32,936 bases of DNA from Chthoniobacterales bacterium (GTDB lineage Bacteria; Verrucomicrobiota; Verrucomicrobiia; Chthoniobacterales; Terrimicrobiaceae), in contig JACSRU010000073.1 of assembly GCA_014879575.1 (NCBI GenBank), positions 1-32,936 of the forward strand. The letters are read 5' to 3'. Under the pieces are notes generated by a model, which saw nothing but the letters and a program-made list of their open reading frames with translations, had not been told where the DNA came from and made no database searches. Below, piece after piece: positions 2,436-29,913 of the stretch. Position numbers and translations under genes: made by a program. The number at the start of each line of letters is the position of its first letter. The stretch's first letter is position 1.

Positions 2436-2438
2436 GCC

Positions 2439-4420: not shown

Positions 4421-4457
4421 GGGCTTTTACGGAAAACAGAACTCCGCCGCAAACTGA
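4410..4457 (+). other. Candidate bridging mini-ORF of 15 codons
   Basis: ATG at 4410 lies inside the end of the FkbM-like gene. The short frame (MPVEGFYGKQNSAAN) ends with TGA at 4455-4457, which shares its last base with the ATG of the next glycosyltransferase (TGATG). It spans the whole 36-base gap. It could carry ribosomes across by stop-start coupling. The peptide itself need not have a function. Chance cannot be excluded from one example. Confidence 0.25.
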
Positions 4458-5626: not shown

Positions 5627-5636
5627 GCTCGACTCC

Positions 5637-6545: not shown

Positions 6546-6549
6546 CGCC

Positions 6550-10383: not shown

Positions 10384-10457
10384 TGGGGGCGGGTCGGAAA
10401 AATCGGTGCGGAGGATTGCTCGCCTGGCGGCGGGGATTCGCTGTATCCTGCGAGTGA
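10383..10457 (+). other. Candidate bridging mini-ORF of 24 codons
   Basis: The ATG at 10383 shares a base with the TGA of the upstream glycosyltransferase (TGATG). The frame stays open for 24 codons and ends with TGA at 10455-10457, sharing its last base with the polymerase ATG at 10457. Both ends therefore show the stop-start overlap that links most full-length genes here. The peptide is basic (begins MGAGRKNRCGG) and matches nothing I recognise. A coupling role is inference. Confidence 0.3.
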
Positions 10458-11827: not shown

Positions 11828-11829
11828 AG

Positions 11830-14078: not shown

Positions 14079-14518
14079 GAAATCCTGAGCGTCTCTGGGC
14101 GGTTTCCCGCTCGCTCCATCGCATGGGCTGGCCGTTTGCCGCCCGGCTGGTCAAGACACTGAATTGGGCAATCCACAAGTGCCTGCTTCCGGCGGAGGCG
14201 ATTGTTGGCGAAGGGGTGATTCTGGAACACCATGCGCTGGGGATCGTGATGCATCCCCAGGTGACGATTGGAGATGGCAGCCGGATTTTTCATCATGTCA
14301 CGCTGGCGGCGGAGTGTTGCATTGGTGCCGAACACCGGATTGTGCTGGGACGGGACGTCACCATCGGCGCCCATTCCATTGTGATCGCGCGGACAGGACA
14401 CTCCCTGCACATCGGGGATGGGAGCGTCCTGGGCGCAGGGTCGGTGCTGACCCACGACATCCCTTCCGGTCAAATCTGGGCCGGAAATCCCGCCCGCTTC
14501 CTCAAAAACAACCAATGA
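14075..14518 (+). CDS. Hexapeptide-repeat acetyltransferase (serine acetyltransferase-like)
   Basis: This 147-residue protein has a short helical N-terminus and then left-handed beta-helix turns (EAIVGEGVILEHHALGIV, VTIGDGSRIFHHVTLAA, CIGAEHRIVLGRDVTIGAHS, LHIGDGSVLGAGSVL) ending in AGNPARFL. The segment HHALGIV...HPQVTIGDG resembles the CysE active-site region, but the CysE N-terminal domain is missing. Such short forms in glycan clusters usually acetylate sugars. It is coupled by ATGA on both sides. It shares the fold with the acetyltransferase at 7464-8078 but is not a close copy. Confidence 0.85.
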   Translation: MRNPERLWAVSRSLHRMGWPFAARLVKTLNWAIHKCLLPAEAIVGEGVILEHHALGIVMHPQVTIGDGSRIFHHVTLAAECCIGAEHRIVLGRDVTIGAHSIVIARTGHSLHIGDGSVLGAGSVLTHDIPSGQIWAGNPARFLKNNQ

Positions 14519-15690
14519 GAGACGCGATCCTTCTGCCGAATATCTCCGGGTTTCCCTCCGAAAGCATGCAGCGGTATGCCGCCGAACTGGCGGCCGCATT
14601 GAGGAAACTCAGGGATGGCACCTGGAGAATCGGAGAAATTCTTTGCGAGCCCTCCGGTGCGATTTCCACAATTTTTGGCGGAGGAAAGTTCGGAGACCAA
14701 ATGGCCAGCCGCCACGCCCGCTTTCTCAAATACCCCGGCATGATCCGTTCCCGGGTCGGCTCGGTGTTTCATATTTTGGATCACAGCCACGCCAACCTGG
14801 CCCTGGCGACACCCCCGGCGGCCACTGTGCTGACCTGTCACGACATCATCCCGTTGCTTGCGGCGAAGGGACGGGTCTCGATGCCGCATCCCGCCATGAC
14901 CCGCTTCACCTTTCCGCTCCGTGTCGCGTGCATGAAGCGGTGCCGAAAAATCATTGCCATCTCGGAAAGCACAAAAAAGACCATGATCGAGGTGGCGGGA
15001 ATCCCGGCGGAAAAAATCGCGGTGGTTTACTACGGATGCAATCCCGCCTTCGGTCCCGAACCAGCGACCCCGGGCCAGTCACCCGCCGGGGAACGTCGCG
15101 AAATTTTCACGCGGTATGGAATCCCGGAAGGGGCGCGGGTGATCCTGCATGTGGCGACGGCAACCCGGTATAAAAACACTCCGGCCATCCTCGAGGCCTT
15201 GCGCATCCTGAAGGAAAAGCCTGATCTCCCGGTCTGGTTGCTCCGGGTCGGCGCGGAATTTTTCGAGGATGAGGCACGGCTTGTCGAACAACTCGGCATC
15301 GGGGACCGCATCCGGCATGTTGGTCGCGTGTCTGATGACCAGCTCCTCGGTGCCATCTATCGCGCGGCGGATGTGTTTGCGTTTCCGTCGCTCTGGGAGG
15401 GCTTTGGCTGGCCCGTGCTGGAGGCGATGGCCTGCGGGACGCCTGTCGTGGTGTCGAATGTTGCGTCCTTGCCGGAAGTCGCGGGAGCCGCCGGTCTTTC
15501 GATCCCACCCCGTGACCACGTGGCGCTGGCCGGGGCATTGGGTGCCGTCCTTTCCAGCCCCCAGGAACGCCTGCGACTCTCGGCGGCGGCCCTTGCGCAG
15601 GCCGGCCGATTTTCCTGGGAAGCCTGCGCCCGGGGGACTCTGGCGGTTTACGAACAAATCGCTGCCGGGCAAAACGGGCGAAGCCCATGA
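14515..15690 (+). CDS. GT4-family glycosyltransferase
   Basis: This 391-residue GT-B enzyme contains VLTCHDIIPLLAAKG in the acceptor domain and IIAISESTKKTMIEVAGI, a signature of the mannosyltransferase-type GT4 group. The donor domain has ILHVATATRYKNTPAILEAL and the E-x7-E pair E295/E303 in EGFGWPVLEAMACGTPVVVSN, followed by SLPEVAGAAG. The DIIP/SES pattern is often seen in mannosyl- or rhamnosyltransferases, but the donor is not established here. The start at 14515 overlaps the upstream stop (ATGA). Confidence 0.9.
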   Translation: MRDAILLPNISGFPSESMQRYAAELAAALRKLRDGTWRIGEILCEPSGAISTIFGGGKFGDQMASRHARFLKYPGMIRSRVGSVFHILDHSHANLALATPPAATVLTCHDIIPLLAAKGRVSMPHPAMTRFTFPLRVACMKRCRKIIAISESTKKTMIEVAGIPAEKIAVVYYGCNPAFGPEPATPGQSPAGERREIFTRYGIPEGARVILHVATATRYKNTPAILEALRILKEKPDLPVWLLRVGAEFFEDEARLVEQLGIGDRIRHVGRVSDDQLLGAIYRAADVFAFPSLWEGFGWPVLEAMACGTPVVVSNVASLPEVAGAAGLSIPPRDHVALAGALGAVLSSPQERLRLSAAALAQAGRFSWEACARGTLAVYEQIAAGQNGRSP

Positions 15691-15710
15691 AAATCCCGCT
15701 CCGGTCATGA
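15687..15710 (+). other. Candidate bridging mini-ORF of 7 codons
   Basis: The ATG at 15687 overlaps the TGA of the upstream glycosyltransferase (ATGA). The frame reads MKIPLRS and stops with TGA at 15708-15710, which overlaps the ATG at 15707 of the next glycosyltransferase (again ATGA). It covers the whole gap between the two genes. Either overlap alone could be chance. Confidence 0.25.
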
Positions 15711-16849
15711 TACTTTTTTTGGATCAAAGCGGGCAGATCGGCGGCGCGGAAATCTGCCTTGCCGATCTCGCGGGTTTTTTTCAATCCCGCTCCCGGGTGA
15801 TCCTCCTGTCGGACGGCCCATTTTTTCCCTATCTTCAAGCGCGCGGAATTCCCGTCTCTGTCCTACCGCTGCCCGGCAATCTTTCCCGGGCCACGAAGAA
15901 GCGGCTGGGTGCGGGGGTGTTGTGGGCTCTGCCCGCTTTCGGCGGATTGCTCTGGAAGCTTCGCAAAGCCATTTTGTCTTCGAAAGTGGTTTATCTCAAC
16001 ACCGCCAAGGCTCTGCTTGTCGGCACCGCCGCCAATGTCCCTGTCCGCCGTCTCTGCCTCTTTCACCTGCATGATCTCTGGGATGCCGCGCATTTTTCCC
16101 GTTCAAACATCCGGCTTCTTGTCGCGGCGGCCAACCGGGCGGATGCCATCATCGCAAACTCCCGGGCCTCCGCCGATGCCTTCCGAAAGGCGGGGGGGAA
16201 AACCGCCCTGCATGTCATTCCCAACGGATTTGACAGTCGGCGTTTTGACGCGGTGGACGCGGGAACGGTCGCCGCGCTGAGGGTGCAATGGAATCCCTCC
16301 GGAGGTCCCGTGGCGGCGATTTTCGGACGACTTTCCCGATGGAAGGGACAGCATGTCCTGATCGAAGCGGCCCGACAAATCCCGGGTCTCACGGTATGGA
16401 TTGTCGGTGAGGCTCTCTACACGGAGGACGACGCCGCCTACGCTGCGGAGTTGAAGGCATTGGCCGCGGGGCTCGGGGCGCGGGTGCAGTTTCTCGGATT
16501 TCAGGGAAATGTTCCCGGCCTGATGCTGGCGGCGGACATCATTGTTCATACTTCCATTTCCCCCGAACCTTTCGGACGCGTGATCGTTGAGGGCATGCTG
16601 GCCGGAAAGCCGGTCATTGCCGTGAATGCCGGTGGCCCCAGGGAAATCATTCGCCCCGACGTTACCGGCCTGCTGATTCCACCAGGGGACTCGTCCGCCC
16701 TGGCGGCGGCTCTCAAGAACCTCCTTGCCAATCCGCAAGCGGCCCGGGCGATGGGAGAGGCCGGACGCCGGATGGCCACCGTCGAATATTCCCTGGAAAG
16801 GGTGGGGGCGGACACTCAAGCGATTCTTCGGAGGCTCGAAACCCCGTGA
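15707..16849 (+). CDS. GT4-family glycosyltransferase
   Basis: This 380-residue GT-B enzyme opens MILFLDQSGQIGGAEICLADL; the GGAE loop is the classic N-terminal motif of GT4. It continues with IIANSRASADAFRKAGG and VIPNGFDSRRF, the donor-domain start AAIFGRLSRWKGQHVLIEAA and the E-x7-E pair E287/E295 in EPFGRVIVEGMLAGKPVIA. The frame is open far upstream only as a shadow of the previous gene. I placed the start at ATG 15707, immediately before the conserved strand. The stop overlaps the next gene's GTG. Confidence 0.92.
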   Translation: MILFLDQSGQIGGAEICLADLAGFFQSRSRVILLSDGPFFPYLQARGIPVSVLPLPGNLSRATKKRLGAGVLWALPAFGGLLWKLRKAILSSKVVYLNTAKALLVGTAANVPVRRLCLFHLHDLWDAAHFSRSNIRLLVAAANRADAIIANSRASADAFRKAGGKTALHVIPNGFDSRRFDAVDAGTVAALRVQWNPSGGPVAAIFGRLSRWKGQHVLIEAARQIPGLTVWIVGEALYTEDDAAYAAELKALAAGLGARVQFLGFQGNVPGLMLAADIIVHTSISPEPFGRVIVEGMLAGKPVIAVNAGGPREIIRPDVTGLLIPPGDSSALAAALKNLLANPQAARAMGEAGRRMATVEYSLERVGADTQAILRRLETP

Positions 16850-17928
16850 ACCTTGTCCTGGCGCACGATTATCTGATCCAGATGGGGGGAGCCGAACGGG
16901 TGGTCGCCGCCATGCATGAGAAATTTCCCTCCGCCCCGATTTTGACAAGCGCCGTGCGCTACGCCGGGCTTTGGGAGGAATTTTGCGACGCGGATCTCCG
17001 CACCACCTGGATGCAACGACTCCCGTTCATCCAGGATCCCGTCCACTTCAAAAAATACGCGCTTCTCTATCCGTTCGCCTTCCGAAATTTCGGCAAGATC
17101 GCCGCGGATGTCGCGTGGATCAGCTCAAGCACGTTTGCCAAGTATCTGCGTTTTCCGCCGGAAACCCGAACGGTTTGCTACCTGCACAACACCACCCGGT
17201 TTTACTGGCAGACGGATGATTACCTGAATTACGCCCCCGAATCCCGTCGTTGGAATCCCCTTCTTCGGCACCTTCTTCCGCCGCTGCGCGAAATGGACCG
17301 GGCGGCTGCAGGGCGGATGGATGTCCTCGTGGCCAATTCCCGCAACGTGCAGGAGCGGATCAAAAGGTGCTACCATCTGGATTCGCAGGTCATCCATCCG
17401 CCCGTGGAAACCGCGCGCTTTTCTCTCTCCGGCAGCGAGGAGGGATACTATCTCATCGTGTCGAGACTGCTGGGCTACAAAAATGTCCAGCTCCCGGTTC
17501 GCGCGTTCACCCGCACGGGACAACGCCTGGTCGTGGTGGGCGACGGGCCTTACCGTTCACAACTCGAACAAATGGCCGGACCCTCAGTGAAATTCTGCGG
17601 CAGGCTCCCGGATTCCGAAATCCAGGACCACTATGCGAAATGCCGGGGAATGATTCTTCCCGGGGAAGAGGATTTCGGAATCACTCCCGTCGAAGCCATG
17701 GCCTGCGGGAAGCCGGTCATTGCTCTCGCAAGGGGCGGAGCCCTCGAAACCGTCCTCGACGGCATCACCGGCGTGTTCTTCTCAGGGTCCTCGGAGGAGG
17801 CCTTTCTTGATGCCGTGACCCGGTGCGAAAACATCGCATGGAACAAGGACGCGATCCGGGACCGTGCGTTGCTTTTTTCCAAAGAGGCCTTTTTGGAGAA
17901 GACGATGCGTCTCCTCTTTGCTCAGTAG
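16846..17928 (+). CDS. GT4-family glycosyltransferase (GTG start), last gene of the plus-strand run
   Basis: This 360-residue GT-B enzyme begins NLVLAHDYLIQMGGAERVV, a form frequent in GT4 enzymes of exopolysaccharide clusters. It has YLHNTTRFYWQ in the acceptor domain, VANSRNVQERIKRCY, LIVSRLLGYKNVQL, and the E-x7-E pair E275/E283 in EDFGITPVEAMACGKPVIA. The start is GTG at 16846, forming GTGA with the upstream stop. Its last 7 bases overlap the tail of the convergent sugar transferase gene, leaving no room for an ordinary terminator between them. Confidence 0.92.
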   Translation: MNLVLAHDYLIQMGGAERVVAAMHEKFPSAPILTSAVRYAGLWEEFCDADLRTTWMQRLPFIQDPVHFKKYALLYPFAFRNFGKIAADVAWISSSTFAKYLRFPPETRTVCYLHNTTRFYWQTDDYLNYAPESRRWNPLLRHLLPPLREMDRAAAGRMDVLVANSRNVQERIKRCYHLDSQVIHPPVETARFSLSGSEEGYYLIVSRLLGYKNVQLPVRAFTRTGQRLVVVGDGPYRSQLEQMAGPSVKFCGRLPDSEIQDHYAKCRGMILPGEEDFGITPVEAMACGKPVIALARGGALETVLDGITGVFFSGSSEEAFLDAVTRCENIAWNKDAIRDRALLFSKEAFLEKTMRLLFAQ

Positions 17929-19325
17929 GCGGACTTCGACGGCTTGAGGATTTCGAGCAGCGTCCGCCAGAGCACGCGGACATCCAGCGGCAGCGACCAT
18001 GTTTCGATATACTCGATGTCGCACTCGACACGCTTGACGATCAGTTCCTTGGTCATCGTCTCCCCGCGATATCCGCGAATTTGCGCCAGCCCGCTCAGTC
18101 CGGGCGTCACAAAGTGCCGGATCCGGTAGGCGGACATCGTCTCCTCGAAAATCTCATCATGCTCGGGCATGTGCGGACGGGGGCCGATGATGCTCATCTG
18201 ACCGGAGAGGACATTGAAAAATTGCGGGAACTCATCGAGGCTGAATTTTCTCAACCACCGTCCCGCTGGAAAAATCCGGTCATCATGCCGGGTGGCCTGT
18301 CGGGGGGAATTGCACCGGTCCGCATACATCGTCCGGAATTTGAAAATAATGAACGGATTATTGTGCAGCCCGGATCTCCTCTGCTTGAAAAACAGGGGCC
18401 CCGGTGCCTGAATCCTTTGAAGGATCCAGACCAGCAGGATCAGGGGCGGCAAAATCAGCAGCACGACCAAAAAACTGACGCAGATGTCGAAAATCCTCTT
18501 CACCGCGCGATTGACCACGTTCTGCAAGGGCTCTTCCCGGAGTTCGATCAAGTCAATGTCGTCGCATCGGAAATAAGAGAGCCGTCTTTGGAGAAAGACA
18601 TCGAGGTCGTTGACGAGAGAGACCCGGCACCCCCGGGCTTCCGCCTGTTTCATCCATCCACTCAGCCATCGGCGATCCTTCGGGCTGCCCACGATGAAAA
18701 TATTTTCGATGCGGTGGCTGTCCAATACCTGTTCGAGGTCGTGCGGGCCGCCAAGTTTCCTGATGCCCTCCGGCAATGCCCCTTCATCGGCCTCGGTCAA
18801 CATGCCGACGGTTTCCAATCCAAACAACTTGGCCTTTGACAACAGGGATTCCAGCTTGGGAAGCTCATCGGGCATTCCGATGAGGAGAAGCTTCTGCTTT
18901 TGGTGGGGCAGAAACCTCTGGAGAATCCCCAAGGCAAAATACCGATTGATCACCACCAACACCACATAGGTCAGGGGGATGTAGGTGAAAAGAAACAGGC
19001 GGGAGATCTCATGGTCCCGCTTGATGAAGGCAAACATGAACGTGATCGCTGTCGCAAAGACCATGTGCGGCCAGATAAACCGATGGCTTTCCATGATCCC
19101 CGAGGTCATCGAAAAAATGTCGTTCTGCTTCGAACTCAAAAACGACACCTGAAACCCCAGCGTAATCGCCAGAAAATACTCCAGATAGGTCGAGAATCCC
19201 ATCAACGAAAATCCAGGGATCAAATTGTCCAAAATAAGAAAGTATCCCCAAAAAAGGACAGTCATCACCAGCGTGACACCCACTTGATAGGATTGGATCA
19301 AACCAAGCTCACGATGCTGGAACAT
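17922..19325 (-). CDS. Polyprenyl-phosphate sugar-1-phosphate transferase (initiating glycosyltransferase)
   Basis: This 467-residue protein would start the glycan by transferring a sugar-1-phosphate onto undecaprenyl phosphate at the inner membrane. The N-terminal part holds about four membrane segments and a soluble domain that resembles the nucleotide-binding fold of the WbaP/CpsE group (KLLLIGMPDELPKLESLL and ENIFIVGSPKDRRWL). A further membrane helix near residue 290 (FDICVSFLVVLLILPPLILL) precedes the catalytic domain, with FFKQRRSGLHNNPF, IFKFRTMYAD, FSLDEFPQFFNVLSGQMSIIGPRP and TPGLSGLAQIRGYRGET. Length and order match the full-size family. It is transcribed towards the glycosyltransferase run, from its own divergent promoter region. 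Confidence 0.93.
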   Translation of the reverse strand: MFQHRELGLIQSYQVGVTLVMTVLFWGYFLILDNLIPGFSLMGFSTYLEYFLAITLGFQVSFLSSKQNDIFSMTSGIMESHRFIWPHMVFATAITFMFAFIKRDHEISRLFLFTYIPLTYVVLVVINRYFALGILQRFLPHQKQKLLLIGMPDELPKLESLLSKAKLFGLETVGMLTEADEGALPEGIRKLGGPHDLEQVLDSHRIENIFIVGSPKDRRWLSGWMKQAEARGCRVSLVNDLDVFLQRRLSYFRCDDIDLIELREEPLQNVVNRAVKRIFDICVSFLVVLLILPPLILLVWILQRIQAPGPLFFKQRRSGLHNNPFIIFKFRTMYADRCNSPRQATRHDDRIFPAGRWLRKFSLDEFPQFFNVLSGQMSIIGPRPHMPEHDEIFEETMSAYRIRHFVTPGLSGLAQIRGYRGETMTKELIVKRVECDIEYIETWSLPLDVRVLWRTLLEILKPSKSAY

Positions 19326-19473: not shown

Positions 19474-22400
19474 ATGGATACGCAGCAGGATTCTGAATAT
19501 ACTTCGCCGGAGGAGGTGGGGATGTCGCCCAGTGCTGAGGGGGGAGTTCCGTCGGCGTTGACGCCGGAGCAGCGGATTGCCGTCCTTCAGGCCGAGTTGG
19601 AGCGGGCGAAGTCGCGGGAGGATTTTTTGCGGATGCAGATTGAGGAGACGCGGAACAAGGCCGGGCAGGCGTTTGCGTTTCAGGTGGAGTTGGCGCAGCA
19701 GCAGGAGGAGACGCTGGAGACATTCCACAATCGGGAGAAGTCGTTGATGTCGGAGTTGGAGTCCGCAAAGAGAGAGGCGGCCGGGGCGGAGGCTTTGAGG
19801 GTTCAGATTGAAGGACAGAAGGCCGAGTTGGAAGCCCTGCTCAAGCAGAAGGAGGAGCTGACAAGGTATCTTGAGGAGGCCCACATCGAAACCGCGCTGG
19901 CGCAGTCCTATCAGGCCGAAGCCAGGGAGCACCTGAGCAAGTTGCAGGAGGCGGTGATCCGGGAGCAGGCGCTCAAGGAACAACTTGCGGCGGCAAAAAA
20001 ATTTGAAGGGCAGGCGAGGGAGCTTGAGGAACGACTGGCGCGGCAGAGTGCGGAGTTAAAGTGGGGGCAATCCTCGCGGGTGTGGGCCAGAAAGCTGCAG
20101 GAGGAATTGGAACAGGAGCATTCCGAGCTTCGGATTTCCCGGGAGAGGGAGAAGACGCTCGCCAGCCGGTTGGAGTCCGCCGAATACCAATTTCGTCTTG
20201 TGGAGTCATTGCAGGGGGAGTTGGTTGCCCAGCGTTCGGAGATCGAGGAAATGCGTGTGAGGGAAGAGGCCCTTTCCGCCGAACTGGAGACTTCCCGCGA
20301 AGCCATTCCCGACGACCGGCTCCAGAAGGAATTGGAAGGCTACCGGAAATCCATGCAGACTCTCCGGGAGCGTGAGGAGCAACTTTTGTTTGAACTCGGA
20401 AATGCCCGGGCTCTCGCCGCCCAGTCCGAGAAGCTGCGGGCGGAACTCGCCGCGCAGCGGTCGGCTGTCGAAAGTTTGCGCGGTCGGGAAAGCGACTTGG
20501 TTGCCGAGTTGGAGGCTGCAAGTTCCCGGGCCGCCCGTGCGGAGGAGCTTCAAAGGCAGCTTGATGAGGAACGGGCTGCGATCACGAGACAGACCGGGCG
20601 TGAGAGCGAGTTGATCGCGGAAATCGAGTCCGCGCGCCGACAGTTGGAGGTTGCGGAATCGCTGAAGACCGAACTGATCGAAAAATCCGGGGAACTGGAG
20701 GCTTCGCGCCAACGCGAAGCGGTTTTGAGGGACGAACTCGCCGCTGCCCAGGCCCGCGGGGAGGAGGCCCAAACCCTTCAGGGCAGCCTGGAATCCGTCC
20801 GGGCCGAACTGAAATCCCTGCAAGAGCGTGAGAGTTTGCTCAGAAACGAACTGAGTGCCGCAAAGCTCAGGGCGGAAACCGTCGAAGAGTTGCAGCAGGC
20901 TCTTGCGGGCGAGAAGTTGGCCCTCGTGGGACTGCGCCAGCGGGAGTCGGAGCTTCTTCGGGAAATCGAAGGTGCAAAAGATGAAGGCGGACGGGTGAAG
21001 AAGTTGAGCGCCGAACTGGCCACCCAGAGTGTCGCACTTCAGGCCCTTCAGGAACGGGAAAAAAACCTGCTGGCCGAACTCGCCGCCGCCCAGGCCCAAG
21101 GGCGGGATGCCGAAGCGTTGCAGCGGGAGATTTCCGCGCGCCGGGCGGATCTCGAGGCGCTCCGCCGGAAGGAACAGCACCTCACTTCGGAACTCGACAT
21201 CGCCCGCCGCGAAGCCGCACTTGTGGAATCCCTCCGCGAGGAAATCGTCACCCAAGGCACCGCCTTGGACAAGCTGCGCACAAACGAGAAGCAACTTGTC
21301 AGTCAGTTGGAAGAGGCGAGGGGCGAAGCCGCTCTGGCCGCCGCGTTGCAAGTTCGTCTGACATCCCACGAGCGGACATTGGAGGAATTCCGCCGAACCG
21401 AGAATTCCCTGCGCACAAGAATTTCACAGCTCGAAACCGATGCGGCCCGCAGTCTGAAGGAGAGTCTGGACCGCCACCATGGGGAACTTGAGGAAGCCAA
21501 AAACCAAAATAGGATATTGTCCCGCCGGATATCCGATGTGTCCACCGCCCTGGAGACCTCCCGAAGAAGTCGGCCGAAATCCGGTCGGGCATTGCTCTTT
21601 GCCTCGCTGGCTGCCGCGAGCGCGCTTGCAGCACTCGCCCTGCAGCTTGTTCCGAAAAAGTCCGATCAGGAAGCACTGCGGACCAACGCGGAGTTGCTTG
21701 ATCGGCTCAAGGAACAGAACACCCAGCTTGCCGGGCAGCTGAATGAAACGCTTTTCCGCCTGCAAACCGCCAAGGACACCGAGCTGAGCCTCGACCGCAA
21801 CAGGAGCCTTTCCGAGAAGCTCGAAGAGGCCGAGGCGAAGGCGATGGAACTGGAAAAAGACGAGCCGGTGAAGCTGGCGCTCATCACGCGCCTGCAATCC
21901 GATCTCGATCTCGCCAACGATAAGATCGCCAATCTCTTCACCGAGCTTGCCTCGCGCGACATGAAGATTCTTGAGTTGGAGAAACTTCTCGGGGAGGCCG
22001 GGGCGCAGGCCTTCCAGTTGACCCTTCCTCCGCCACTCTCCCTGAACGAAGTGGCGCCCGTGTTCCTGAACAATGCGGAGCCATCCGCCGTGTTGAGCAC
22101 ATCGGCCCTTCCCGCCGGGGAGTCCCTGCACATTCTTCAGGCGCGCGCCGAAAAGGAATTTCAGGAGAAAAATTTTGAGGCCGCCGAATCCCATTACCAG
22201 CAGGTGGCGGACCGGGCGCCCACAAACAGCCTTGCCTGGTCGAACCTCGCGGCGGTCCAACTGGAACTTGGAAAATTCAACCTTGCGGAAAAATCCATCC
22301 GCAACGCGATCGAGCTCAGCCCGGACGATGCCTTTTCGCATACGACCTTGGGAATCATTCTTCTCAAAACCGGTCAGGTGGATGCCGCCATGAAAACCCT

Positions 22401-22671
22401 GCTCAACGCCATTCACCTGGATCCCAGCGATCCCTCCGCCTTCAACTACCTGGGGGTGGCCTTTGAGCAGAAGGGGGACCGGGATCGCGCCATCGAGGAG
22501 ATCGGAAAGGCGCTGAAGTTGTCGCCGGCCTATGCCGAAGCCTACTTCAATCTGGCCATACTCCACGCCTCCGGCGATGCGGCCTCGAAACAACTCGCCA
22601 AAAAGTATTATTCCAAGGCGCTCGAACTTGGTGCCAAGCCCGACAGCCAGCTCGAGAATTTGCTGAAGTAG
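19474..22671 (+). CDS. Long coiled-coil membrane protein with 38-residue repeats and C-terminal TPRs
   Basis: This 1065-residue protein has four parts. Residues 1-46 are acidic and disordered-looking. Residues 47-640 form a highly charged coiled coil made of about sixteen repeats, nearly all exactly 38 residues long. Residues 706-726 form a single membrane helix (ALLFASLAAASALAALALQL) preceded by a basic stretch (SRRSRPKSGR), which suggests that the long coil is cytoplasmic. A second, shorter coil (about 735-830) is followed by about four TPR units (884-1065, for example AWSNLAAVQLELGKFNLAEKS). I do not recognise the whole protein. TPR proteins in export clusters often act as assembly adaptors, and its place between the initiating transferase and the export genes suggests a scaffold, but this is inference. 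It converges on the beta-barrel gene, leaving 45 bases between the stops. Confidence 0.92.
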   Translation: MDTQQDSEYTSPEEVGMSPSAEGGVPSALTPEQRIAVLQAELERAKSREDFLRMQIEETRNKAGQAFAFQVELAQQQEETLETFHNREKSLMSELESAKREAAGAEALRVQIEGQKAELEALLKQKEELTRYLEEAHIETALAQSYQAEAREHLSKLQEAVIREQALKEQLAAAKKFEGQARELEERLARQSAELKWGQSSRVWARKLQEELEQEHSELRISREREKTLASRLESAEYQFRLVESLQGELVAQRSEIEEMRVREEALSAELETSREAIPDDRLQKELEGYRKSMQTLREREEQLLFELGNARALAAQSEKLRAELAAQRSAVESLRGRESDLVAELEAASSRAARAEELQRQLDEERAAITRQTGRESELIAEIESARRQLEVAESLKTELIEKSGELEASRQREAVLRDELAAAQARGEEAQTLQGSLESVRAELKSLQERESLLRNELSAAKLRAETVEELQQALAGEKLALVGLRQRESELLREIEGAKDEGGRVKKLSAELATQSVALQALQEREKNLLAELAAAQAQGRDAEALQREISARRADLEALRRKEQHLTSELDIARREAALVESLREEIVTQGTALDKLRTNEKQLVSQLEEARGEAALAAALQVRLTSHERTLEEFRRTENSLRTRISQLETDAARSLKESLDRHHGELEEAKNQNRILSRRISDVSTALETSRRSRPKSGRALLFASLAAASALAALALQLVPKKSDQEALRTNAELLDRLKEQNTQLAGQLNETLFRLQTAKDTELSLDRNRSLSEKLEEAEAKAMELEKDEPVKLALITRLQSDLDLANDKIANLFTELASRDMKILELEKLLGEAGAQAFQLTLPPPLSLNEVAPVFLNNAEPSAVLSTSALPAGESLHILQARAEKEFQEKNFEAAESHYQQVADRAPTNSLAWSNLAAVQLELGKFNLAEKSIRNAIELSPDDAFSHTTLGIILLKTGQVDAAMKTLLNAIHLDPSDPSAFNYLGVAFEQKGDRDRAIEEIGKALKLSPAYAEAYFNLAILHASGDAASKQLAKKYYSKALELGAKPDSQLENLLK
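19612..21393 (+). repeat. 114-bp (38-codon) periodic coding repeat inside the coiled-coil gene
   Basis: Residues 47-640 can be laid out in 16 successive units with the pattern x-R-E-x-x-L-x-x-E-L, about ten variable residues, then x-L-x-x-x-L and a final L-x-x-L-R. Units start at residues 47, 86, 124, 162, 200, 224, 262, 299, 337, 375, 413, 451, 489, 527, 565 and 603. Thirteen are exactly 38 residues; unit 1 has 39, unit 7 has 37 and unit 5 only 24 (about 14 residues missing). The repeats are diverged in DNA and protein, so the duplication is old. Confidence 0.85.
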
Positions 22672-22716: not shown

Positions 22717-24345
22717 TCAGAACCGCATTCCAAGCGACATGCCGCTGGTGTTGCTGAGGTAGTTGTTTCCCTGGCTGTCGTTGAGTTTCTGTTGAAGGTT
22801 GTTGAAGAGGTTGATGTTCATGTCATCGCGGAGGAGATAGGAAACAGACAGGCTGGCCTGGACATAGTCGTAGGTGCCGGAGTCCTGGCCATTGAGACCC
22901 ACGTTTTCCACGCGTCCGACGGCCAGGGCACCATTGACGGTGGTGGAGTGGGAGATTTTCCAGGAACCGGCGGCCTCGAGGCTCGTTGTGATTTGCAGAT
23001 TGCCCGCGCTGAAGGCGTCCATGTCCACATTGCGGAAAAATCGGAGTGTCACATAGGTTTTGGAGGTCGGGCGGTAGAGGGCAGAGATGTTGACCACCGA
23101 AGTGACTGTCGAGGAGGAGCCGCCGCCAGCCAGAAGGGATTGGCGGAACTGCAGGCCGCCCTCTCCGCGGAAGACGAGTTTCGAAGTCGGGTTGTAGAGC
23201 AATCGCAGGAGGAAGGATTCCGAGGTGGTCGTGCCGGCCGAGGAGATGTTGTATCCCAGCGCGACCGCGACTCCCACCGTGGTTTTCCGCGAATATTTGT
23301 AGTCGATGGAAGTGGTGAATGTTCCCTGGAACTGCCGTCCGCCCGAGCCGGAGTCGGTCATGATGCCGTCCAGACCGAACAGAATCTCGGTCTTTTTCGT
23401 GAGGGCATAGCCGGCGAACAGTCGGGTGAAAACCGCCTTCTGTTGCGATTGTCCCTGGCTGTTGAGAAAGAGCCCGCTCTGCGCGATGTAGCTGGCGTCA
23501 AGGCCGACACGCAGCTTCGACCAACGGTAGCGGGAACTGAAGGCAAACGTCTGGTTGACCGCATTGAGTTCCTTGTATTTTGCGTATTGGAGAAAGCTGG
23601 GGGACCAGAGGAATTGCATGGTGCCCTTTTTCCCCGTCTCGAGATAAAAAGTTGGCTGGAGCGTGAGAATCGAGTCGCCCTGGGGATTTTTTGGGGAGCC
23701 GAAGACGTTGTTGTTGTAAGCGACGGCGGCGTTGAGCGCGACCCCGTAGCGGATCCGGCTGCTTCCGATCATAAACGCGCGCTTTGTGCTCATAAAGGAG
23801 GGGGCGCCGATCGTGCCGAGCGGACGATTCTGCGGCAGGGGGCCAAGGATTTCCCGGCTCATGCCGCTCATCGAGGGGCCGAATGTCTCGGGAAATTCCG
23901 GCAAGAGCCTGCTCTCCGGTGCGCTCAAAGGTGCGGCCTCCAATCCGGATTGCAAGGAGGGGGCCGTGTGGTCGGGGAGGGCCAGATTCGCTTCCAACGG
24001 ACGCAGGTCATCCTTCCCGCCTGGCGGAGAAACCCCCACGGGAGGCTGTCCGAGGAACAGTTCCCTGGAGTCCACAATGGGCGGACCCATATCCGGCTCT
24101 TCCACCAGCTTGAGCGATTCCAGACCATCCAGGATTGTCGGTTCATTTGCTCCGGGATTGGCGGTCTGCGCGGCATCAACGGAAGAGTCGGATGTTTCCC
24201 CCTCCGCGAGGGAAGCTGGAGCCGGGGTTTGCGCCCGGGCCGATGCCCCGACAGAAAGCAATAAAAGGCCGGTCGTCCATCCAAGCACCAGGGCCCATTG
24301 CAAGTTGCGTCTGCCACGAGAGTTTTGGAACATTTCTGTTCGCAT
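22717..24345 (-). CDS. Outer-membrane beta-barrel protein of the export operon
   Basis: This protein of about 542 residues has a signal peptide (basic MRTEMFQNSRGRRN, hydrophobic core LVLGWTTGLLLLSVGA, likely cleavage after ASARA near residue 38). An acidic, proline-rich linker of about 145 residues follows. From about residue 185 to the end it shows alternating hydrophobic/polar strands rich in Tyr, Phe, Gly and Asn, ending SLGMRF with the terminal Phe typical of outer-membrane barrels. There is room for about 16-18 strands. It is last in the wza-wzc-barrel operon, overlapping or abutting the Wzc-like gene. Some polysaccharide systems (such as Wzp of myxobacteria) use a barrel as the outer-membrane pore when the Wza-type protein is short; that may be its role here. 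GTG 24378 or ATG 24333 are alternative starts. Confidence 0.8.
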   Translation of the reverse strand: MRTEMFQNSRGRRNLQWALVLGWTTGLLLLSVGASARAQTPAPASLAEGETSDSSVDAAQTANPGANEPTILDGLESLKLVEEPDMGPPIVDSRELFLGQPPVGVSPPGGKDDLRPLEANLALPDHTAPSLQSGLEAAPLSAPESRLLPEFPETFGPSMSGMSREILGPLPQNRPLGTIGAPSFMSTKRAFMIGSSRIRYGVALNAAVAYNNNVFGSPKNPQGDSILTLQPTFYLETGKKGTMQFLWSPSFLQYAKYKELNAVNQTFAFSSRYRWSKLRVGLDASYIAQSGLFLNSQGQSQQKAVFTRLFAGYALTKKTEILFGLDGIMTDSGSGGRQFQGTFTTSIDYKYSRKTTVGVAVALGYNISSAGTTTSESFLLRLLYNPTSKLVFRGEGGLQFRQSLLAGGGSSSTVTSVVNISALYRPTSKTYVTLRFFRNVDMDAFSAGNLQITTSLEAAGSWKISHSTTVNGALAVGRVENVGLNGQDSGTYDYVQASLSVSYLLRDDMNINLFNNLQQKLNDSQGNNYLSNTSGMSLGMRF

Positions 24346-24359
24346 AGGCACGGGTGGCT

Positions 24360-24806
24360 TCAGGAGGCTTTGCGCCACGTCTCTGCGGCGTGGAGCATTT
24401 TTGCGCTGGCTTCCTCCTCGGTGAGTCCGGTTTGGACGAGGCGTTTGAGCAAGTTTTGAAACAGGCGGTTTCGTTCCTGTCCGGCGGCGGAGGTGTCATG
24501 GCGCGCGGAGGGGGAAAGCTCATTGCGCCAGACCTTGAGCGTGAGAAGCAATTGCTGGCGGGCCTGTTCGTGGACCAGGCCCGAGGCTTCCAACAAAGCA
24601 ACCAGTTCGCCGAAAATTTGTCTGCGGGCATTGCCTTCCGGCGTGGCGTCGCGCCGCTCGTCGTGTGTCGGCACAAACACATGCCCGCACGAGCATTTCC
24701 GCTTCATGTTCCTTACCTCGCCGACGGCTGTCCCGCCCTGGTCCACCGTTTCGTTCAGGCAGGCGGAGAGGCTGGCATAGGATTTTCCGCAGGCTGGACA
24801 TGCGAT
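24360..24806 (-). other. C-terminal zinc-ribbon plus doubled helical module of the Wzc-like protein
   Basis: Residues 717-864 carry two cysteine pairs, C719/C722 (CPACGKSY) and C754/C756 (CSCGH), then DERRDATPEGNARR. Two copies of a helical unit follow: residues 777-812 (RRQIFGELVALLEASGL, then EQARQQLLLTLKVWRNE) and 828-863 (RNRLFQNLLKRLVQTGL, then EEASAKMLHAAETWRKA). The separate protein at 28464-28907 has the same cysteine pattern, the same DRRD..E.GN.RR link and one copy of the helical unit. Zinc binding is inferred from the cysteines. I know no named domain with this layout. Confidence 0.75.
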
Positions 24807-26954
24807 GCCGGAGTCCGCCGCCACCAACGCGGAGGGCTCCAATCCTGCCAAGGGACTGAGAAAGGGCCGCGGGGCAAAGTTGAGGATCGCTCCCGAGAGC
24901 CGGGCCGCCGAGCGTGTGAGAAGTTCCTGCGCGCGCTTGCAGGCGGCCTTCGGCGTTTTTCCCGCGCGAATCACCAGACAGACAAAGGGAAAGAGACGCG
25001 CGAAGGAAAGCGTGTCGCTGACGATTCCCACCGGCGCGGAGTCCACCACAATTTTGTCGTAGAGGGGCTTGGCTTCGGTCAGGAAATCCAGGATTCCCTG
25101 ACGGGTGATTGTTTCTGCGGGAAACGGACAGGGAGAACCGGCGGAAACAATATCCAAATTTGGCAGGCTGGTGGAGTGAATGGTTGTGGGCAGCCCGCAT
25201 TCCCTCTGGAGGTAATTCGAGAGACCGTCGCGTCCGCCGTTTCCGAAGACAATCCTCTCCAGGGTGGGTTGCCGGAGGTCGGCATCCACGAGGAGTGTTC
25301 TCTGCCCGGCTTGCGACATGGAGATCGCCAGATTGACCGCGCAAAAGGATTTCCCCTCTTCCTCAAGGGCGCTTGTGATGAGAATGAAGTTCCCGGCCTC
25401 TTCCTCCTCGATGACCCGCAGGGCAGCCCGCAGGGACCGGATTCCTTCCGTTGTGGAGGAAAATTTGTCGGTGAGAGCCGGACAGTTTTCCCAGCCATCG
25501 ACCGAGCCGGACAGGTGGTCCTTCGAGGGCTGATATTCCGGAATGGCGCTGAGGACGGAAAGTCCAAGAATTTTTTCCGCTTCTTCGGGGGATTTGATGC
25601 TGGAGTCCAACTGCATGAGGAGGAAAACCAACCCGAAGCCCGCCATCAGGGAAATGACGACGGAGGTGGCAAAAAGTTTGAGTGCCTTTGAGCCTGCGGG
25701 CATGCCGGGTCCGGCGGGATTGACGATTTGGAGGAGGACCGGTTGGCTGCGGGCCTGCGAGAGTTCCTCACTCAGGCGCCGGAGGGCCGCCTCGTAGGCC
25801 AGGCGGTCGGCGTCGATCTGCCGTTGCAAAACGCGGGAGGGAACAGACAGGTCGCGGACCTGGATCACCTTTTCCTCCTGGGTGGTCTGTTCCCGGAGGA
25901 GCCCCTCCTCCTTCTCCTTCGCCCCCGCGAGGGCGGCCTCGATCTGCTTGGGAGCCGTGAGGACTGCGGCGAGCAGGGAGGATTGCAACTCCTTGAGTTC
26001 CGACTGCGCCTGGCGCATGTAGGGGTTGTCCTCGCGATAGCGCAGCGCGAGTTTTGACAACTTGTTGTTGCTTTCCGCGATCTGGGCATTGAGCGAGACA
26101 ATCGCCGGCATCTTCCGGATACTGTCGATTTTGAGCAGCCGCTCCGGGTCGTTTCCGCAGCTCTGGATCTGGGCGAGGTCGCTCTCGATTCGCAGGCGCT
26201 CGGCCTTGGCTTCCGTCGTGCGCGAGTTGAGTTCCTTGAGCTGGTTGGCGACGATGTTCATGTCTCCGTCAATGGAGACATTTCTCAGCGTGCGGGTGTA
26301 GGTGTTGAGCTTTTCTTCGGAGGTGCGGAGATTTTCCTCCATCTTTTTCACCTCATCCTTGAGGTAGCGAATGTTGACGCCCATGGCCGCGATCCGCTGG
26401 TCGCGGTCGAACTCGATCCCCTGGTCCACGATCATATTACAGATCCGCTGGGCCATGAGCGGATCGGGGTTGGTGAAGGAAATCCGGATGATCCGCGTGT
26501 CTGGGATGAGAAGAACCTTGGAATCCTTCATCAGATAAGCCCCGATGGAGGCGTCATCGAGCTTGCCGATGGGCGATCCGCCGAAAGTGAGCCCCTCCAG
26601 TCCGGCGGATTTGATTTCCTGCACCACGCGCTTGATCAACATCGGGTTGATAAAGCTTTTCTCGATCGTTTTGAGATCTTCAACCGTGGTGGCGCCCTCC
26701 ATCGCAAGGGGATTGCCTGTCAGGGACACCGCCGAGGTGGAGGCCCGGCGCTCCACTTTGAGATCCGAGGACGCGGTGAATTCCTGCGTGGTGTTTTTTA
26801 CAAGAAAAAAACCGGCTCCCAACCCAAGAAGAAGGAAGGCGGTCGGAATCCACCAAAACCGCAGCGAGGCCCGCAGAAAGCCCGCCATGTCGAAGGCCGA
26901 CGTGCCGCTTCCACTGGAGAATGGGTCGCCGGAATCCGGTTCCTGGGTGAGCAT
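24360..26954 (-). CDS. Wzc-like polysaccharide co-polymerase/ATPase with a zinc-ribbon and helical C-terminal extension
   Basis: This 864-residue inner-membrane protein is the chain-length and export ATPase of the system. A first membrane helix (about 34-52) is followed by the periplasmic Wzz-type domain, with coiled coil between about 195 and 400. The second helix lies near 427-447. The cytoplasmic BY-kinase-type domain has Walker A ALEEEGKS (529-536), Walker A' LLVDADLRQP (554-563) and Walker B KIVVDSAP (634-641). In typical BY-kinases a tyrosine-rich tail follows and is autophosphorylated. Here none is present: residues 717-864 instead form a CPACG...CSCGH segment and two helical modules (described separately). 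The gene starts directly at the stop of the export lipoprotein gene and ends at the barrel gene, so the three form an operon. Confidence 0.92.
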   Translation of the reverse strand: MLTQEPDSGDPFSSGSGTSAFDMAGFLRASLRFWWIPTAFLLLGLGAGFFLVKNTTQEFTASSDLKVERRASTSAVSLTGNPLAMEGATTVEDLKTIEKSFINPMLIKRVVQEIKSAGLEGLTFGGSPIGKLDDASIGAYLMKDSKVLLIPDTRIIRISFTNPDPLMAQRICNMIVDQGIEFDRDQRIAAMGVNIRYLKDEVKKMEENLRTSEEKLNTYTRTLRNVSIDGDMNIVANQLKELNSRTTEAKAERLRIESDLAQIQSCGNDPERLLKIDSIRKMPAIVSLNAQIAESNNKLSKLALRYREDNPYMRQAQSELKELQSSLLAAVLTAPKQIEAALAGAKEKEEGLLREQTTQEEKVIQVRDLSVPSRVLQRQIDADRLAYEAALRRLSEELSQARSQPVLLQIVNPAGPGMPAGSKALKLFATSVVISLMAGFGLVFLLMQLDSSIKSPEEAEKILGLSVLSAIPEYQPSKDHLSGSVDGWENCPALTDKFSSTTEGIRSLRAALRVIEEEEAGNFILITSALEEEGKSFCAVNLAISMSQAGQRTLLVDADLRQPTLERIVFGNGGRDGLSNYLQRECGLPTTIHSTSLPNLDIVSAGSPCPFPAETITRQGILDFLTEAKPLYDKIVVDSAPVGIVSDTLSFARLFPFVCLVIRAGKTPKAACKRAQELLTRSAARLSGAILNFAPRPFLSPLAGLEPSALVAADSGIACPACGKSYASLSACLNETVDQGGTAVGEVRNMKRKCSCGHVFVPTHDERRDATPEGNARRQIFGELVALLEASGLVHEQARQQLLLTLKVWRNELSPSARHDTSAAGQERNRLFQNLLKRLVQTGLTEEEASAKMLHAAETWRKAS

Positions 26955-27605
26955 TTAAAAGAGGGTTTCCTTGACGAAAATCGTGTCGCCTTCCCGGATG
27001 AAAAAGTCCGCAGCCTCGGGGCTCATGGCATTGAATTTGATCTTTTCGTTGCCATCGCCGGCTCGACGCGTGACGACCACGTTCCGGGCATCCCCGATGT
27101 CCGTATTTCCGCCCGCCATGGCGATGGCCTGTGGGAGGGTCAGATCCTCCTCCCCGGGAATGACAAAGGCTCCCGGATTGCGGACCTGACCCCAGACAGT
27201 GAAGCGGCGAGGGGAGTAGCTTTCGATGGAAATCGTGACCTGCGGGTTCACGAGTTGCTTTTGATTGAGCTGATCCGCAATTTTTTTAGCGGCTTCGTTG
27301 ATGGTCAATCCCGCCACGACCACGCGTCCGATCAGGCCCACCGAGATGGTGCCGTCCCCGATGATCCTCTGGCGGGTGGTCATATAGGGTTCCTGGAAAA
27401 CTTCGAGCAACACGACATCGCCCACACGCAGCCGATACATTGTGCTTCCCGTGGAAGAGGGAGGTGGGGGGAGGGATCTCCCGGCTCCGCTCTCGCAACC
27501 CGTGAGGCATGTCAGCAGCAGAAGGAGAATCGCGCTGCCCAACATGTGGAACCGTAAGGGCAAACTGGCGTGGGATGGATAACTGTGCATAGGCATTTGA
27601 AGCAT
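26955..27605 (-). CDS. Short polysaccharide export lipoprotein (Wza/OPX-like)
   Basis: This protein of about 216 residues has a lipoprotein signal (hydrophobic LGSAILLLLLTC, lipobox LTGC with the cysteine near residue 37), then a poly-proline spacer. The polysaccharide export domain is YRLRVGDVVLLEVFQEPYMT through ADQLNQKQLVNPQVTISI, and one SLBB-type domain follows (WGQVRNPGAFVIPGEEDLTL, AIAMAGGNTDIGDA). It is much shorter than E. coli Wza (about 380 residues) and lacks the second SLBB copies and the C-terminal helix that crosses the outer membrane. The frame is open to ATG 27668, but that leaves only 10 bases to the divergent VanZ gene, so I prefer ATG 27605; ATG 27590 is also possible. The stop TAA abuts the wzc ATG. 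Confidence 0.87.
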   Translation of the reverse strand: MLQMPMHSYPSHASLPLRFHMLGSAILLLLLTCLTGCESGAGRSLPPPPSSTGSTMYRLRVGDVVLLEVFQEPYMTTRQRIIGDGTISVGLIGRVVVAGLTINEAAKKIADQLNQKQLVNPQVTISIESYSPRRFTVWGQVRNPGAFVIPGEEDLTLPQAIAMAGGNTDIGDARNVVVTRRAGDGNEKIKFNAMSPEAADFFIREGDTIFVKETLF

Positions 27606-27678
27606 TGATTCCCGTCGCGGGGCAGGCCCCAACTCCATAAGATTGACAGCGGGGAATCTTAGACTCATTTAGAGGGGA

Positions 27679-28263
27679 ATGAAAGGTTTTTCTCTTTTCC
27701 TAAACCGTTGGTTGCCTGTGGGATTTTGGGTTGCTTTTGTGATCTACGCCTCGACCAACATCGGCTCAGGAGAAAACTCCGGCCACTTTCTCCGATCACT
27801 CCTCGCGTGGTTTCACCCGGATTTCGGAGGGACCTCAATTCGGGAAATCAATTTTTTCACCCGAAAAAGCGGCCACGTGATTCAGTTTTTTGTCTATGCG
27901 GTCCTGCTCTGGCGGGGGTTGCGATTGTCTCCTCCTGTGACAAAAAGTCTGCGAGAGACCGCGCTCCTGGTGCTCGGCACGGCAGCTTTTCTCGCGGTCC
28001 TGAGCGAGTGCATTCAGCTCTTCTCCTCCCTGCGCAGCGCCCAGATTGCGGATGTCGGTCTCGATGTTGCCGGGGCGATGATCGGACTCGCAGTCATCCT
28101 GACCCTTGCCTCAGTTTTCAAAAGACGCCCCCCGGGAAAAACTTCGCCCCCCGCGCCGAACGGACGGCCGGCGGAAAAAATCCTCATCACTTCCGATCTC
28201 CACCTGGACCAGTCTGGGGATCGCGGGAGGGAGGTTCTGGAAAAGATTCCGGAGAAAACGTGA
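27679..28263 (+). CDS. VanZ-like membrane protein
   Basis: This 194-residue protein has four predicted membrane helices and the VanZ-family pattern: RKSGHVIQFFVYAVLLWRGL, then LSECIQLFSSLRSAQIADVGLDVAGAMIG. VanZ-like proteins are small membrane proteins, often beside cell-envelope polysaccharide genes, whose biochemical role is not settled. It is divergent from the export operon. A perfect TTGACA lies at 27643-27648 but no good -10 follows at the right distance. The last 30 residues are unusual: EKILITSDLHLD looks like the opening metal-binding strand of a calcineurin-type phosphoesterase, yet the frame ends 17 residues later and no such domain continues in another frame. Confidence 0.82.
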   Translation: MKGFSLFLNRWLPVGFWVAFVIYASTNIGSGENSGHFLRSLLAWFHPDFGGTSIREINFFTRKSGHVIQFFVYAVLLWRGLRLSPPVTKSLRETALLVLGTAAFLAVLSECIQLFSSLRSAQIADVGLDVAGAMIGLAVILTLASVFKRRPPGKTSPPAPNGRPAEKILITSDLHLDQSGDRGREVLEKIPEKT

Positions 28264-28421
28264 TGCGGATTCCCGGGATCCCCTGTGCCAAGACCGAAAG
28301 CGGTCCCGATCCCCTGCGCTTCCTCTTGTTCGATTCCAAAACCCTCGCAATCACTTCTTTTTTTCCTGCGGAAATTCCCGCCGAGACACCCGTTGCACAA
28401 ATAAAAGCAACTGGTTGTTAA
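28263..28421 (+). CDS. Possible small protein of 52 residues, unknown
   Basis: An ATG at 28263 shares a base with the VanZ-like gene's stop (TGATG), and the frame runs 52 codons (begins MRIPGIPCAKTESG, ends AQIKATGC). I recognise nothing in it. The coupled start is in keeping with this genome, but the reading frame may be chance. The 42 bases after it are AT-rich and probably hold the promoter of the next gene. Confidence 0.25.
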   Translation: MRIPGIPCAKTESGPDPLRFLLFDSKTLAITSFFPAEIPAETPVAQIKATGC

Positions 28422-28463
28422 AAAAATCTTGCGCTTTGAAAAAAATATTCGTAGGTTTCGCTC

Positions 28464-28907
28464 ATGGTTGTTGTGGAAGCAAAATCGCAAGTCCCGATTT
28501 CCAAGGATTCCCTCTATCAAGGTTTGAAAGCGATCTGGGATACGGAATTTCCGAAGACCTGTCCAAAATGTGGGAGGGTGTATGGATCTTTTGAGGAATA
28601 CCTGATTGACACGAAGGTGTTGCCGAACAGCAGTGGGTTGATGGGATATGACATCGGAGATCCGGGTCAGCAGGTGGGGTTGTTCCGCAACTGTGGGTGT
28701 GGCACCACAATCATGGCATTTTGCCACGACCGCAGGGATTTGTCGGAATCCGGGAACAAACGCCGGAAGCTTTTTGGGGAATTGATGAACCGGCTGGTGG
28801 ATACCGGCATCTCCGCCTTGGAGGCCCGGCAGAAATTATTGTCCGCCCTCCGGACCACTCCGGATGTGGACGAGTTTCGCAAAGCGGTCCAACTACCCCC
28901 CCAATAA
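28464..28907 (+). CDS. Stand-alone zinc-ribbon/helical protein matching the Wzc-like C-terminus
   Basis: This 147-residue soluble protein has a helical N-terminus (SLYQGLKAIWDTEFP), a cysteine pair C33/C36 in CPKCGRVYGSF, a variable loop, a second pair C77/C79 in NCGCG, then CHDRRDLSESGNKRR. A helical unit RRKLFGELMNRLVDTGI/EARQKLLSALR follows (residues 100-130). The Wzc-like protein's last 148 residues have the same order of elements: CPxCGxxY, CxCG, D-R-R-D, GNxRR, FGEL, AR..LL..L. I do not recognise it as a named family. It may bind the Wzc-like protein through the shared module, or both may bind a third partner; that is inference. The upstream 42 bases are AT-rich with no clear Shine-Dalgarno site. 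Its 3' end overlaps the convergent J-protein gene by 15 bases. Confidence 0.85.
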   Translation: MVVVEAKSQVPISKDSLYQGLKAIWDTEFPKTCPKCGRVYGSFEEYLIDTKVLPNSSGLMGYDIGDPGQQVGLFRNCGCGTTIMAFCHDRRDLSESGNKRRKLFGELMNRLVDTGISALEARQKLLSALRTTPDVDEFRKAVQLPPQ

Positions 28908-29444
28908 GAGCGTTTGCGCGTCGCGTAAAAGTTGGTGTCCTTTGGTGACGAAGGGGAATTCGTCGGCCAAGGTCCGGATTTCGTCCGGGGTCACATCGGG
29001 CCAACGGGAATCCAGGGCACGAAGGGTTTTTTCCAGCGAAAAGATCCGCTTGTTTGTCTCCTCAATCCTGCGCGAAATTTCCTTTTGAAGGGCCGCAATT
29101 TCCGCACGACGGACAGCGAGAGCCAATGGGGAGGAGGGCTTGTCGGCACAGAGGGTCGTCGCTTTTTTTGCCAGAGATCCCACACGGGCAAACCATTCGA
29201 AATCCGGCGAAAAATTTTTCGTTCCCATCGGTTGCCGTCCGGTCAATTCGAGGAGGTGCAGGAGCCTGGTGGAGGGGACGGCCAGGATGTGCCGGGCGGT
29301 GTTCAGGCGGGTCATCGGAAGCGGATCGCCGCCACATTTGTCCGGATGCCGAAGTGCGGCGAGTTCGTGGTAGCGCGATTGGAGTATCACCGGCTCCAGC
29401 CACGGACGACGCTCGAAACCGAATTCCGCGAAAGCATCCTTCAC
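28893..29444 (-). CDS. hscB: HscB-like J-domain co-chaperone
   Basis: This 183-residue protein starts DAFAEFGFERRPWLEPVIL and has the J-domain signature HPD (residues 33-35, in ALRHPDKCGGD). The C-terminal half is helical (residues 90-170), as in HscB/Jac1. HscB brings the scaffold protein carrying an Fe-S cluster to the Hsp70 HscA. I chose GTG 29444 because it overlaps the stop of the Fe-S carrier gene (GTGA) and lies just before the conserved start; TTG 29471 would overlap the upstream gene by 31 bases. Coupling to an A-type Fe-S carrier supports the call. HscA and IscU are not in this window. Confidence 0.72.
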   Translation of the reverse strand: MKDAFAEFGFERRPWLEPVILQSRYHELAALRHPDKCGGDPLPMTRLNTARHILAVPSTRLLHLLELTGRQPMGTKNFSPDFEWFARVGSLAKKATTLCADKPSSPLALAVRRAEIAALQKEISRRIEETNKRIFSLEKTLRALDSRWPDVTPDEIRTLADEFPFVTKGHQLLRDAQTLLLGG

Positions 29445-29800
29445 GCGGAAAAGCTTTCCCCGCACGAACAATGGGCGACGGCGTTCGGATTGGTGACCTT
29501 GAATCCCCCTTTTTGCAGGTCCTCACTGAAGTCCAGTTCCGAGCCGCTCACAAATAATGCACTTTTCGGATCCACGACCACGCGGACATGGTTTGATACC
29601 ACCAGGATGTCCCGGTTGGCGGGACCGTCCACGAGATCCATCTTGTATTGGAGTCCGGAACACCCTCCGCCGATGACAGCAATCCGGAGTGCCCCTTCCG
29701 AGCGGCCCTGCTTTTCCAGCAAACCGCGAAGTTTCGCGCTCGCGCCGTCGAGCACGCGGATCAGTTTTTCATTTCCGATGCGGTGGGAAATTTGTTCCAT
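29441..29800 (-). CDS. A-type iron-sulfur cluster carrier (IscA/ErpA/HesB family)
   Basis: This 119-residue protein has the family's three conserved cysteines: C47 in GGGCSGLQY and C111/C113 in HCSCGESF. The intervening FVSGSELDFSEDLQKGGFKVTNPNA is typical of the family. It accepts or delivers Fe-S clusters to target enzymes. The ATG at 29800 is preferred over a TTG at 29809. It is translated just ahead of the HscB-like gene, with a 4-base overlap. Which of IscA, ErpA or SufA it equals cannot be told from sequence alone. The promoter must lie in the 113 bases shared with the divergent nnr gene. Confidence 0.92.
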   Translation of the reverse strand: MEQISHRIGNEKLIRVLDGASAKLRGLLEKQGRSEGALRIAVIGGGCSGLQYKMDLVDGPANRDILVVSNHVRVVVDPKSALFVSGSELDFSEDLQKGGFKVTNPNAVAHCSCGESFSA

Positions 29801-29913
29801 GACATACAAAACGCATAATCCGAACTTCCGCGCAAGGGGATCAGCTCTTCGGGAGCACGGATTGTTTGGACAAAATTCTTTTCCCGAGCGCGCATCGGTC
29901 TCATGCTGGAGAC

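Follow-up and report, generated by a model that had tools for sequence, protein, structure and literature searches.

In current models, tyrosine phosphorylation of the Wzc tail is the clock of capsule and exopolysaccharide export. In the Wzc of E. coli, a subunit's tyrosine tail reaches into the active site of its neighbor and phosphorylation loosens the octamer; the cycling of Wzc depends on this tail, and export needs the cycling (PMC11986026, PMC12004946). The BY pseudokinases EcpK and HfsB support the co-polymerase without catalysis, by direct contact (PMC12004946). Fused co-polymerase/pseudokinase proteins, such as SMc01795, have also been named in other bacteria (PMC12004946), and phosphorylation-free co-polymerases are therefore a known kind.

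The Wzc-like protein encoded in the window (the whole 32,936-nucleotide stretch of DNA analyzed here, from the genome designated G000) resembles E. coli Wzc, a PCP-2a BY-kinase, in joining a co-polymerase part and a BY-kinase domain in a single chain, in retaining Walker A, A' and B together with the ExxRxxR motif, and in the adjacent wza gene. Unlike E. coli Wzc, it has no tyrosine-rich tail and carries instead 148 residues made of a zinc ribbon and two helical repeats, and three of its relatives no longer have the Walker A Lys. The clade of Wzc proteins with this tail (fused Wzc) shares with EcpK of Myxococcus xanthus and HfsB of Caulobacter the absence of a Tyr-rich tail (PMC12004946) and, in part of its members, the absence of catalytic Walker residues; it would likewise be expected to act through protein contact. 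Both pseudokinases are proteins of their own with a short C-terminal helix, whereas in the fused clade the kinase-like part is joined to the co-polymerase and has acquired a domain. The SMc01795-type fused PCP-2/pseudokinases likewise hold co-polymerase and kinase-like part in one chain; for these proteins, compared here by description only, the text consulted in PMC12004946 reports no zinc-ribbon tail. In the open-access literature, we found no report in which a zinc-ribbon domain takes the place of the tail.

The export locus and its Wzc-like protein

The features on which the comparison draws are as follows.

22717..24378, minus strand: EpsL-like outer membrane protein, adjoining wzc (weak match to NCBIfam TIGR03014, 22 bits against a cut-off of 275)
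24360..26954, minus strand: Wzc-like polysaccharide co-polymerase (PCP-2a layout), 864 aa, with periplasmic/Wzz part, BY-kinase domain and novel tail (NCBIfam)
24363..24806, minus strand: novel 148-residue tail in place of the tyrosine cluster (homology to the small protein; Tyr cluster at this place in homologues)
24378..24503, minus strand: helical repeat 2 of the tail, aa 818-859 (phmmer, tblastn in the genome, hhalign)
24522..24662, minus strand: helical repeat 1 of the tail, RRD..G..RR..F..L..L...G....AR..LL (homology, predicted model, profile match)
24663..24803, minus strand: zinc-ribbon-like part of the tail, Cys 719, 722, 754 and 756, CPxC...CxC (invariant Cys)
25032..25052, minus strand: Walker B, IVVDSAP, aa 635-641, intact
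25266..25295, minus strand: Walker A', LLVDADLRQP, aa 554-563, intact
25344..25364, minus strand: Walker A region, EEEGKSF, aa 531-537, Lys kept
26955..27668, minus strand: wza-type outer-membrane export protein (Poly_export, SLBB; Pfam PF02563, E 1.6e-18)
27679..28263, plus strand: VanZ-family protein (Pfam PF04892, E 2.6e-11)
28464..28907, plus strand: stand-alone 147-aa protein, zinc-ribbon-like part and one helical repeat (ORF, homology to the Wzc tail)

The BY-kinase homology of the window Wzc is supported by TIGR01007, which matches residues 506-692 with 131 bits against a cut-off of 108 (E 3.9e-38), and TIGR01005 spans residues 97-692 below its cut-off (E 7e-36). Its co-polymerase part is of the Wzz/EpsF type, matching TIGR03017 (141-471) and TIGR03007 (154-474), both below the full-family cut-offs. 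The tail contains a single Tyr in its 148 residues, and we therefore describe the protein as a PCP-2a-type co-polymerase and not as a canonical tyrosine autokinase.

The Wzc-like and small-protein genes lie on either side of wza and the VanZ-like gene, where the first-pass annotation had placed them. Glycosyltransferases, an O-antigen-ligase/Wzy-type protein, an ABC transporter with a Wzt C-terminal domain and an undecaprenyl-phosphate sugar transferase are encoded at 345-19325. The order wza, wzc, epsL-like, undecaprenyl-phosphate sugar transferase is common to G000, G005, G006 and G012, the last three also keeping the EpsL-like gene after their fused wzc. Since the ABC transporter ATPase with the Wzt C-terminal domain (345-2435) occurs in the same cluster as Wza/Wzc and the Wzy-type protein, two export types may share the locus. 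Also within the polysaccharide cluster is a 1065-aa protein (19474-22671) with a long repetitive, probably coiled-coil part followed by C-terminal TPR repeats. On its other side, the small gene stands tail-to-tail with hscB-like and iscA-like genes (28893-29809), which are kept beside it in G001 and G003 and are absent beside it in G002; the name hscB-like reflects a J-domain-like reading of a product with no Pfam match.

A domain common to the Wzc tail and a small protein

The first-pass annotation had proposed that an undescribed zinc-ribbon/helical domain is common to the Wzc tail and the small protein, and this proposal is borne out at several levels. BLASTP aligns Wzc residues 718-807 with residues 32-130 of the small protein (E=5e-15, 34% identity over 103 columns), and phmmer agrees. 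When relatives were gathered from related genomes, a profile of six Wzc tails matched a profile of eleven stand-alone proteins with a probability of 99.7 and E=2.3e-25 (profile-profile score), a significant result in the comparison on which that annotation had staked the homology. The four Cys of the CPxC and CxC motifs are invariant in 17 of 17 sequences, and the elements follow in the order originally described (CPxC, variable loop, CxC, RRD, G-x-x-RR, F, AR-x-x-LL). The Wzc tail domain is thus probably zinc-binding, judging from its cysteine pattern. A six-frame search of the whole window genome recovered no copies besides the Wzc tail and the small protein.

The annotation had overlooked a second helical repeat. 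At residues 818-859 of Wzc the helical half recurs (phmmer i-E 8.6e-8; hhalign profile E=9.6e-13), a duplication found by three methods and present in all six fused tails. The free proteins of about 150 aa have the same four Cys and two-helix unit as the tail, but differ in having a single helical unit, an additional N-terminal helix that bears an FPK motif, and a longer SGLMGYD loop. Two distant proteins (L041:8428-8937 and L042:7463-7915) have an FPKxCxxCxRxxATLRxYxLxTK...NCxCGxTLAL ribbon with a different C-terminal half and, on their sequences, would form a ribbon-only branch of the domain family.

No Pfam, NCBIfam or PHROGs model scored above cut-off for any member of the domain, the best Pfam match over 12 members being zf-RING_4 (E 0.005, few residues, below cut-off). 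PDB sequence matches to C2H2 fingers were rejected as matches to the cysteine pattern, which weaken with the stand-alone profile. No homologues were found in plasmids, phages or viral contigs. The AlphaFold2 model of the Wzc tail (pLDDT 77, three-sequence alignment) predicts that the first CPxC is followed by a short helix, then a strand region and two helix pairs; the poor model of the small protein (pLDDT 57) predicts the same order of elements with one helix pair. The predicted order therefore agrees, as the first-pass annotation had anticipated, although this agreement lends weak support to a common fold because the small-protein model is poor and both models derive from the same three-sequence alignment. 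Neither model gave a clear match among solved structures (best Foldseek E 1.1; best VIA-align Z 6.0, to helical bundles), which does not imply a new fold. The analysis defines a widely scattered domain family that had no name.

Replacement of the tyrosine cluster in one clade of Wzc kinases

Kinase homologues were gathered with the window Wzc kinase domain from 58 related genomes, and the genomes compared are mostly drafts. In the homologous kinases, the chain stops soon after the kinase domain in a tyrosine cluster (YYAYYYSGKYYGSYGAKGVYGE in one genus, YYYYYYGDEYSKDSVYGAKGA in another). Six proteins, which belong to three genera within the window's family, lack the cluster and have the zinc-ribbon domain at this position instead. 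On the tree of co-polymerase and kinase parts, these six fused Wzc proteins form one clade (92/74) with a truncated protein next to it; the enclosing 100/100 group has the Tyr-tailed kinases of family f9 as its outer members. The zinc-ribbon domain has thus replaced the tyrosine cluster in one clade of Wzc kinases, and its donor is a family that otherwise exists as a free protein of about 150 aa. This replacement, absent from the first-pass annotation, is more informative than the regulatory pair which that annotation proposed. When 384 genomes of the class were searched with the tail profile, no fusion turned up outside the window's family. In the tree of the domain itself, the tails form one clade (99/99) on long branches, apart from all stand-alone proteins; the fusion is therefore old and predates the genus, and recent copying of the small neighboring gene onto wzc is ruled out.

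The nearest relative of the fused clade (L099:6912-9020, G007:C34) is truncated near the end of the kinase domain, at the start of an opposite-strand glycosyltransferase gene, a truncation that may be real or an assembly error; it was excluded from the tail count because its frame enters that gene. The window genome encodes on another contig a second BY-kinase with an ordinary Tyr tail (L100:5659-7890, G000:C112; HYEYYTSYYNYYHK), so that canonical and tail-swapped kinases coexist in one cell. G003 has two Wzc-like copies, 78% identical, on two contigs (L045:3-863 and L021:1-2562), and the copy adjoining wza and the small gene is cut by a contig end.

The ATP-binding site is eroding in half of the fused Wzc proteins. 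The Walker A Lys is kept in G000, G001 and G003 and replaced by A in G012, T in G006 and V in G005, a loss in three of six fused proteins against none of the 83 other kinases having that column, many of which are near-copies. A Fisher test gives p=2e-4, ignoring relatedness. On the tree, G012 has G006 as its sister, and G005 joins this pair (96/95); because all losses fall in this sub-branch, they may represent a single event followed by drift, and a phylogenetically sound p-value cannot be given. The Walker B Asp is Asn in G001, as it is in three Tyr-tailed kinases, and Walker A, A' and B are intact in G000 and G003. Absence of the Tyr-rich tail, one mark of a pseudokinase, is accompanied by Walker loss in G005, G006 and G012 and not in G003 or the window protein, which we do not call a pseudokinase because its ATP motifs are intact.

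Purifying selection acts on the Wzc tail, with dN/dS of 0.12 between G000 and G003 and about 0.3-0.35 against G001, and more strongly on the free small protein (0.03-0.07); the kinase domain, at 0.04 between G000 and G003, is also under strong purifying selection. These values are rough, as synonymous sites approach saturation. The idea that a cognate phosphatase had been lost was considered and set aside as uninformative, since LMW-PTP genes occur in 57 of the 58 relatives.

Proposed control of the ring without tail tyrosines

These patterns suggest how the export machine of one Verrucomicrobia group could run without tyrosine phosphorylation. The Wzc switch cannot work in its usual way in the fused proteins because the tyrosine tail is missing, and in G005, G006 and G012 the role of the tail needs no catalysis, since the Walker A Lys is gone and the tail is kept. 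We think it rather probable that the tail swap marks a Wzc co-polymerase moving to phosphorylation-independent control, with kinase catalysis becoming dispensable. Without tail tyrosines, the ring would no longer be dismantled by autophosphorylation, and we infer that its assembly and release would be set by contacts of the new tail with itself, the neighboring subunit or another partner. The duplicated and putatively metal-stabilized tail domain would supply these contacts; kinase catalysis, then dispensable, would be free to decay, with a scaffold or pseudokinase as the end state. The window protein, its ATP motifs intact and its tail substrate gone, would be an intermediate. It is possible, if doubtful, that the phosphorylated tail was exchanged for a zinc-dependent oligomerization domain with a metal-stabilized, phosphorylation-free ring cycle, the kinase being lost stepwise (intact in G000 and G003, dead in G005, G006 and G012).

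The window species and G003 keep intact Walker motifs, so catalysis may continue there on other substrates. The kinase of the window's genus might accordingly work with a tail that brings in another protein as substrate, as the strong purifying selection on the kinase domain of G000 and G003 would also allow; however, G005, G006 and G012 retain the tail though their Walker A Lys is gone, and no gene within the window encodes a Tyr-rich C-terminus, so we consider a recruiting tail unlikely. The regulatory pair, in which the free small protein would act on the Wzc tail by competition, bridging or sensing, draws on the common domain and on the occurrence of the two genes at a single locus in G000 and G001. 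Yet among 213 genomes of the order, fused and free forms occur together in three (G000, G001 and G003), and each is found without the other: G002, a 96% complete genome of the same genus, has the free protein and no fused Wzc; G005 (only 71% complete), G006 and G012 have fused Wzc and no small protein; and family f9 has the small protein with an ordinary Tyr-tailed Wzc, on other contigs. The free protein is found also in more distant Verrucomicrobiota. Its gene adjoins yjeF in the window's genus, even in G002, where the wza/wzc side and vanZ are missing, and has no conserved operon partner, the flanking genes differing between families. With tails and stand-alone proteins also in separate, long-branched clades, co-occurrence, synteny and tree all leave the pair unsupported and quite improbable; the two forms may still interact directly in the window species, and nothing in this analysis calls for such contact. 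Stress or metal sensing, whereby the ribbon loses zinc or is oxidized and ring stability changes, the free protein being a separate sensor, would fit the invariant CPxC/CxC motifs and the hybrid histidine kinases that adjoin the free gene in family f9 and lie near it in G259. Structural zinc sites are common, though, and these neighbors may be there by chance, which makes sensing very improbable.

The swapped clade places kinase-intact and kinase-decayed members side by side, with Tyr-tailed homologues one tree step out, and thus allows one to ask which part of the export cycle needs phosphorylation and what can substitute for it.

We further note the positions of the two histidine kinase genes. 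The one in family f9 (L033:3478-4629) lies beside the gene of the free domain protein, divergent and 15 bp apart in G033, and the one in the distant genome G259 (L038:4408-6858) lies two genes away from it.
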